A DNA stretch of 38,669 bases from Bacteroidota bacterium (GTDB lineage Bacteria; Bacteroidota; JABWAT01). The position numbers were made by a program, and so were the translations under genes. Positions 13,617 to 14,590 of the stretch are shown here, piece after piece (the first letter of the stretch is position 1; each line of letters starts with the position of its first letter). The DNA lies in the NCBI GenBank assembly GCA_017303995.1, contig JAFLBE010000043.1, positions 1 to 38,669 on the forward strand, given 5' to 3'. The notes below the pieces were generated by a model. The model saw only the letters and a program-made list of their open reading frames with translations. It was not told where the DNA came from and did not search any database.

Positions 13617-13736
13617 GCATTTTAACAGGGATAAACAGGATGGTCAGGATAAATTCAAAACAAAAAATTGCCCATTCCAAAAACTGTATTCTTTATTTTT
13701 CCTGTTCATCCTGACTATCCCTGTTCATTTGAATTA
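13617..13736. repeat. Inverted-repeat element, copy 1
   Basis: The left arm (13621-13650) carries AACAGGG/AACAGGA/GTCAGGA units spaced 9 bp apart. The right arm (13700-13735, CCTGTTCATCCTGACTATCC...) is its near reverse complement. The interior holds CCATTCCAAAAACTG. It starts 1 bp after the receptor stop codon and could fold as a long hairpin at the transcript end. Confidence 0.8.
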
Positions 13737-13832
13737 TTAATCTCCAAAATGAGCACTTTTTTGAATTTATTACTCATTTGAATTATTTTTGACCGTCCTG
13801 AGTAACTTTCAAATAAAATCCCGAATAAAAAA

Positions 13833-14264
13833 ATGAAACATGCTGACATTACAGAAGCCATAATTGGTGCTTCATTTGAAGTTATAAATGAACTTGGTTC
13901 CGGTTTTCTGGAACAAGTTTATCACAAAGCTTTAGCGTTTGCACTAACTGACAAAAACATATTTGTTCAACCACAATATCCAATTGAAGTAAGTTTCAGA
14001 AACAGGCCGGTGGGTCAATTCTATGCTGATTTATTGGTTGAAAATAAAGTCATTGTTGAAGTTAAGGCAGTCAAAACTATTTTACCGGAACACCAGGCTC
14101 AAGTCATAAACTACCTCAAAGCCACGCAAATTGAAGTCGGATTATTGATTAACTTTGGTAGTTCAAAACTTGAATACAGAAGACTTGATCTGCGGAATAA
14201 ACAAACTTTCAGATCAGAATTGATTCAAACAGAACCAGAATTTCCCGATGCATATTCTTTTTAA
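13833..14264 (+). CDS. GxxExxY protein, PD-(D/E)xK nuclease-like
   Basis: 143 residues. The family motif GxxExxY is seen as GFLEQVY (24-30). The nuclease core is seen as D66 in YADLL followed by E76-V-K78 in VEVKAV, matching PD-(D/E)xK superfamily spacing. The N-terminal ITEAIIGASFEVINELGSG and the C-terminal QVINYLKATQIEVGLLINFG are also typical. The family's cellular role is unknown. The gene lies between two copies of an inverted-repeat element, and its TAA stop (14262-14264) falls inside the left arm of the second copy. Members often occur in many copies per genome, which suggests mobility. The nuclease fold is supported by motifs; activity is inferred. Confidence 0.88.
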   Translation: MKHADITEAIIGASFEVINELGSGFLEQVYHKALAFALTDKNIFVQPQYPIEVSFRNRPVGQFYADLLVENKVIVEVKAVKTILPEHQAQVINYLKATQIEVGLLINFGSSKLEYRRLDLRNKQTFRSELIQTEPEFPDAYSF

Positions 14265-14415
14265 CAAGGATTAACAGGATAGTCAGGATAATTTCAATTT
14301 AAAAAATATCTGTGATTCAGGATCTTTGATTTTCCCGAGTTTTAATTTTCCTTTTCTAAAAACTGAATTTGGATTCATCCTGTTTATCCTGACTATCCCT
14401 GTTCATTTGAATTTT
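14259..14415. repeat. Inverted-repeat element, copy 2
   Basis: Left arm: TTTTTAACAAGGATTAACAG and onward (14259-14290). Right arm: CATCCTGTTTATCCTGACTA and onward (14375-14410). The interior shares AAAAACTGAATTTGG with copy 3. The left arm supplies the stop codon of the GxxExxY gene. Confidence 0.8.
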
Positions 14416-14426
14416 AAAACCAAATC

Positions 14427-14590
14427 CATTTAACAGGGACTTACAGGATGGTCATGATAAATTCATTTTTTTTGTTGATCTACCGACTAATCCTAATCTT
14501 TGATTACTTTAGATTCAGAATTTCCCATTCCAAAAACTGAATTTGGTTTTCATCCTGTTCATCCTGACTATCCCTGTTCATATGAATTTG
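14427..14590. repeat. Inverted-repeat element, copy 3
   Basis: Left arm at 14429-14465 (TTTAACAGGGACTTACAGGA and onward) and right arm at 14551-14585 (CATCCTGTTCATCCTGACTA and onward). The interior CCCATTCCAAAAACTG matches copy 1, and AATCTTTGATT resembles copy 2. It lies 12 bp after copy 2. Together copies 2 and 3 fill most of the 424-bp gap before manA. Confidence 0.8.

Follow-up and report, generated by a model that had tools for sequence, protein, structure and literature searches.

GxxExxY genes are often flanked, in at least 12 named phyla, by inverted arms made of short units repeated about every 9 bp, and the nuclease and its arms probably constitute one system resembling REP sequences and their RAYT enzymes. 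The locus from which this association was traced lies in a stretch of 38,669 nucleotides (hereafter the window) from a Bacteroidota bacterium (GenBank assembly GCA_017303995.1, contig JAFLBE010000043.1). GxxExxY genes occur in 152 of 296 genomes drawn from the phylum of the window, that is, in about half of them. To our knowledge the encoded proteins have no assigned role, and a search of the full text of 5.39 million open-access papers returned only two incidental mentions of them.

Three inverted-repeat elements surround the window gene (Table 1), as the first-pass annotation of this DNA had described, and the left arm of the second element (TTTTTAACAAGGATTAACAGGAT) indeed supplies the stop codon of the gene (TAA, 14262–14264). 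Identity among the three elements is 67–83% in the left arms and 77–87% in the right arms, and their right halves have AAAAACTGAATTTGG or a close variant in common. The arms pair through perfect stretches of 14–15 bp within longer 76% inverted repeats. Fold z-scores were obtained by treating the elements as single-stranded DNA and comparing them with dinucleotide shuffles; no Rfam match above the gathering score was found here. The annotation had described the arms as CAGGAT units at 9-bp spacing: the spacing of about 9 bp holds, but the first unit is CAGGGA.

Table 1. Features of the window and arm cores at the five GxxExxY loci of the source genome
Feature	Position	Strand	Description	Basis
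Inverted-repeat element 1, gene-less	13617-13738	.	left arm ~13622-13660, right arm ~13698-13738; DNA fold z=-3.4	
Spacer, element 1 to gene start	13739-13832	+	no structure, z=+0.6	
GxxExxY gene	13833-14264	+	143 aa, predicted PD-(D/E)xK nuclease fold	TIGR04256, PF13366, conservation, structure model
Inverted-repeat element 2, gene-less	14258-14415	.	left arm contains stop codon of the gene; DNA fold z=-3.2	
Inverted-repeat element 3, gene-less	14423-14590	.	DNA fold z=-3.6	
Window locus			arm core AACAGGGATAAACAGGATGGTCAGGAT	
L005/L180 locus			arm core GTCTGAATCAGGATTTACAGGATTTGAGGAT	
L001/L177 locus			arm core AACCACAGAGGACGCAGAGTTAGTCACAGAG	
L002/L178 locus			arm core CACAGAG...ACAGAGATACACAGAG; arms on both sides of gene	
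L004/L179 locus			arm core CACCGCAGAGGCGCTGAGAGCGCAGAG; arms on both sides of gene	

Profile searches assigned the window protein to TIGR04256 (E=1.9e-41, 141.1 bits, cut-off 35) and to PF13366, PDDEXK_3 (E=1.5e-41, 141.8 bits, cut-off 22). Residues G24, E27, Y30, D66, E76, K78, Q90 and Y94 are invariant among the five paralogs of the source genome. In an alignment of 70 proteins G24, Y30, D66, E76 and K78 remain invariant, and E27, as well as Q90 and Y94 (the QxxxY following ExK), are at least 90% conserved. The PD-(D/E)xK residues that had been attributed to GxxExxY proteins are thus present as D66, E76 and K78. Moreover, D66, E76-x-K78 and Q90-x-x-x-Y94 follow the order D...ExK...QxxxY, which is the motif order of the RecB-like nuclease family. 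No sequence relative was found in the PDB. The AlphaFold model of the window protein (pLDDT 91.6) gave as top Foldseek matches Cas4 (4ic1, E=7e-5), lambda exonuclease (3slp, E=5e-4) and MGME1 (E=8e-4), and the fold class of GxxExxY proteins is accordingly predicted from the model to be RecB/Cas4/lambda-exonuclease-like, with the QxxxY motif. Pfam and NCBIfam gave only PDDEXK_3 and GxxExxY for the window gene, and no match to HUH/Y1 tyrosine transposases. In three species of one genus the GxxExxY domain lies within an open frame of 883 aa (G025:C9:91044, G053:C1:72354 and G037:C22:338277), possibly a fusion protein. In G054, G034 and G046 GxxExxY genes are broken up by internal stops or split frames, and are likely to be decaying copies.

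The source genome (4.31 Mb) contains five GxxExxY genes in all, including that of the window. We read all five loci, and inverted arms of period 9 are present at each. The unit cores differ from locus to locus, the spellings being CAGGAT, CAGAG and CGCAGAG (Table 1).

For a comparison beyond this genome we used the best 80 loci from the GTDB genome collection, representing at least 17 named phyla and retrieved with a query built from the source genome's own proteins, together with loci of relatives; the GxxExxY gene was located in all 161 of the 161 loci used. Other genes (predicted ORFs) at the same loci served as controls, and flanks were defined as the 350 bp before and the 350 bp after each gene. 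With a score of at least 20, the two flanks were mutually inverted at 57.9% of 159 GxxExxY genes and at 7.4% of 488 control genes; around 40% of the GxxExxY loci score below this threshold. The corresponding values were 16.3% for those 80 control genes whose intergenic flanks are each 120 bp or longer, and 1.0% for the flanks of the GxxExxY genes themselves after first-order Markov resampling. The expectation that such repeats would accompany GxxExxY genes at other loci, and more often than they accompany random genes, was thus borne out, both in the source genome and in at least 12 named phyla.

The period itself is seen in 5-mers repeated in both orientations, which were found at lags of 8–10 in 46.6% of GxxExxY genes versus 7.7% of controls, and at lags of 17–19 in 22.4% versus 3.2%. 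There was no enrichment at lags of 5–7 or 14–16, and little at 11–13 (3.1% versus 1.9%). A spacing of 9 also dominates the histogram of units in the chosen arms, but because those arms were picked partly for lag 9, the 5-mer comparison is the fair test of the period. When period and inversion were scored together, the best pair of 36-nt arms reached at least 34 in 40.4% of GxxExxY genes, compared with 3.7% of 350 controls. At such strong pairs the gene lies between the arms in 51 of 65 loci, where the outer span has a median of 516 bp; 35 of these loci come from the GTDB collection, 18 of them from Bacteroidota, and they represent 12 named phyla in total. The arrangement described first, a gene lying among several elements, applies to the window, where these are complete and gene-less, whereas the gene at related loci with strong arms is mostly enclosed by a single arm pair.

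The arm signal emerged only when the two sides of a gene were compared or a period of 9 was required. With a generic ungapped inverted-repeat score computed on one flank at a time, GxxExxY genes could not be told apart from controls, and in a search of 296 genomes with the broad pattern RGAT-N5-RGAT... the signal was swamped by coding repeats. The stricter pattern GTCWGAATCNNGGATT overlooks the CAGGAT spelling of the source genome, because CAGGAT has one base fewer. Its matches of the form GTCTGAATC[A/G]CGGATT, a subset chosen post hoc that counts as support only, were found in eight genomes, each of which is GxxExxY-positive; in G002, G003 and G054, the three for which gene coordinates were available, all 12 of 12 such matches lie no more than 5 kb from a GxxExxY gene.

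Arm sequences follow the protein lineage. Arms were assigned by eye from arm listings, before any tree was built, to two classes, whose units end in GAT/AAT and in AG/AA, respectively. On a quick tree of 101 proteins (121 columns) these classes require six changes, compared with 23.9 when labels are shuffled, and none of 500 shuffles was as low. Closest to the window protein in this tree are L037, L039, L040 and L038, from a Spirochaetota, a Verrucomicrobiota, an Acidobacteriota and a Bacteroidetes assembly, and each of them has arms of the AACAGGGAT/ACAGGAT type. In one other clade, several members (L107, L193, L183, L159, L174 and L180) have the terminal tag GTCTGAA in common. CAGGAT is not a general signature, since every nuclease clade has a core of its own. 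Between named phyla, arm similarity is correlated with protein identity (Spearman 0.37; permutation sd 0.10, none of 1000 permutations as high), and for pairs from different phyla its mean increases from 6.6 below 40% identity to 6.9 at 40–50%, 8.5 at 50–60% and 12.2 above 60%. The correlation is also found in a wider set that includes the G-coded genomes (rho 0.20; permutation maximum 0.14), in which synonymous third-position identity is 29–32% in every identity bin and is thus saturated. As the matching persists where neutral linked DNA would be randomised, we infer from these sequence comparisons that the arms are kept by selection to match the protein.

Arm pairs also exist without the gene. 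At the L177 locus one gene-bearing copy lies among three gene-less copies, all of which retain both UTR sides of the gene-bearing copy. One of them, E2, matches the gene-bearing copy on the 5' side up to a point about 10 bp from the ATG and picks up again about 36 bp after the stop codon, the pattern expected of a clean internal deletion; E2 equals the gene-bearing copy minus its gene. BLAST searches with element sequences gave 89 matches in the source genome, 81 in the sister species G002, and 10 and 4 in two other relatives, numbers that speak to dispersal and not to enrichment because the queries were taken from GxxExxY loci. Among 20 matched stretches that were read, at least nine are two-armed gene-less copies of the L180 family, about 141–149 bp long, and several are single arms of the window type. 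No compensatory base-pair changes were found among the gene-less copies, so the sequence of the units, rather than their pairing, may be what is selected or recognised. At L253–L262 of the source genome (G000), single arms of the window type adjoin other interspersed repeats of the CCCCGTAGGGGTGA and TTAATGGTTAATGG types. A further 17–19 single-arm repeats (TTCAGAATCACAGATTTTATGGATTACGCAGATTGCACGGATT) are scattered through G108, which has no TIGR04256 match; they resemble the arms in make-up and occur together with GATTCTTCGCTTCGCTCTGAATGACG repeats.

The sister species G002, about 93% identical to the source genome at the compared flanks, differs from it in the presence of genes and elements. 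At the L180 site both gene and elements are absent from G002, in which TCAGGATTTTCGG of the left arm is kept, and in G001, which is more distantly related, no arm is present. At the window site G002 has elements 2 and 3 and lacks the GxxExxY gene, and its ortholog of element 3 (L206:2100-2240) has in its interior one single arm that belongs to an unrelated family, CACGAAA (TTTCGTGTATTTAGTGCTTTTCGTGGT). At the L177 site GCTTAACCAC is kept and divergence follows. Among gene-less sites, one is vacant in G002 (L246, 1614-1760), one is without the element (L247) and five are filled. Empty sites, which the first-pass annotation had proposed to look for, thus exist in the sister species as gene-free or element-free sites, but the few vacant sites of G002 show no clean target-site duplication: either 8–15 bp of the left arm persist (L197 and L210) or the site is rearranged. 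Two sites in Flavobacterium carry syntenic GxxExxY genes across many species (L053, L057, L061, L062, L068, L069, L071 and L104 at one; L070, L073, L075, L092, L096 and L112 at the other). The gene is therefore not highly mobile and its turnover is slow there, which suggests long-term retention.

As we envisage this system, a typical copy of about 0.5 kb would consist of a left arm with three or four of the roughly 9-bp units, followed by the nuclease gene and an inverted right arm. The two-armed copies of 120–170 bp that lack a gene would have arisen by deletion and dispersed in the genome in the manner of REPINs or MITEs. DNA ends and flaps are what known RecB-like enzymes process. The predicted RecB/Cas4-like PD-(D/E)xK nuclease would recognise the core of the units in its own arms, probably in single-stranded or forked DNA or in an extruded hairpin, and would cut or trim the DNA at its cognate arms. 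Host repair or recombination might then copy or move the element, at times losing the gene, and the spread of the arms would in this way be driven by the nuclease.

Other readings of the same loci have to be weighed. We consider it unlikely that the arms only regulate the GxxExxY gene in cis, as operators, attenuators or terminators to which the protein or a host factor binds, and that they do not move. The position of arms directly upstream and downstream of the gene would suit such a function, as would unit cores that are more conserved than the pairing; autoregulation would also yield co-variation of protein and arm, and the observed matching is as compatible with the arm being the operator of the protein as with recognition of the arm by it. 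However, the genome contains tens of further arm copies without a gene at other places, the gene-less copies of L177 have kept the UTR sides without the gene, and an operator does not need symmetric inverted arms after a stop codon. That GxxExxY is instead a passive cargo of MITE-like elements, which another transposase or recombination would move, seems to us quite improbable: a cargo would not remain matched to lineage-specific arms across phyla at synonymous saturation, and no other gene recurs between arms in the loci read by eye, even though gene-less copies outnumber gene-bearing ones, G108 has arm-like repeats without a TIGR04256 match, and we know of no RecB-like nuclease that joins strands.

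A domesticated or defensive role, in which a Cas4- or Rpn-like nuclease would act against invading or damaged DNA and the arms would be self tags or diversification sites, appears very improbable. The fold class is common to Cas4 and AddAB, synteny is stable in Flavobacterium, and Rpn nucleases have been reported as anti-phage toxins (PMC10327210). However, PADLOC matches are weak (best E=0.0055), and the immediate neighbours of the window gene, namely manA and a GH30 glycosidase downstream and a TonB receptor upstream, do not form a defence island; these genes, and an esterase-like gene that also lies upstream, are ordinary. Finally, it is hardly credible that the repeats reflect chance or the low complexity of AT-rich DNA between genes; some control genes with long intergenic flanks have inverted repeats too, which would agree with such an origin, but the period, resampling and permutation controls contradict it.

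The likeness to REP/REPIN sequences and RAYTs (PMC3116915 and PMC2817692), which the first-pass annotation had drawn, lies in a small enzyme gene with short flanking palindromes and in gene-less copies dispersed between genes; it has become stronger because such dispersed copies exist and because the arms co-vary with the nuclease, although it does not extend to the enzyme. RAYTs are HUH/Y1 tyrosine enzymes, whereas GxxExxY proteins are predicted to have a RecB/Cas4-like PD-(D/E)xK fold. In addition, REPs are single palindromes of 20–40 bp and GxxExxY arms are arrays of 9-bp units, and the GxxExxY gene, unlike that of RAYTs, usually lies between the arms and often exists in several copies per genome. 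Insertion sequences and MITEs similarly have a gene between inverted ends and gene-less derivatives formed by internal deletion. In contrast to insertion sequences, the GxxExxY elements that we read contain no transposase of a known class and only a nuclease between the arms; these arms are imperfect and composed of repeated units instead of being precise terminal repeats, and no target-site duplication was found.

Cas4, lambda exonuclease and the RecB/AddB domains (PMC3466216 and PMC4176176) are DNA-end processing enzymes that resemble GxxExxY proteins in predicted fold and in the D...ExK...QxxxY order. They differ in that GxxExxY is a stand-alone domain of about 125 aa (143 aa in the window protein) paired with repeats, and the window gene is not located beside CRISPR or recombination genes. 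Rpn/Transposase_31 proteins (PMC5350276 and PMC10327210) are likewise multi-copy members of a nuclease superfamily linked to recombination or defence. They constitute a separate family (PF04754, compared with PF13366 for GxxExxY). We know of no comparable palindromic arms at Rpn/Transposase_31 genes.

As a tentative proposal, short mobile elements of a new class, distributed over at least 12 phyla, could have GxxExxY proteins as their enzymes; in them a minimal RecB/Cas4-like nuclease, unaided by any transposase or strand-joining enzyme, would drive the spread of the arms. Elements of this kind might depend on a lineage-specific 9-bp unit that each nuclease reads in its own arms, and on cutting followed by host repair, and the gene-less copies would perhaps be their non-autonomous members. 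The present finding provides a substrate hypothesis for GxxExxY genes that can be tested at the bench, and it offers an explanation for a common class of interspersed repeats, the strings CAGGAT, CACGGAT, CACAGAG and CACGAAA, by making them the partners of a family of nucleases. The DNA preference of this family is apparently written beside each gene.
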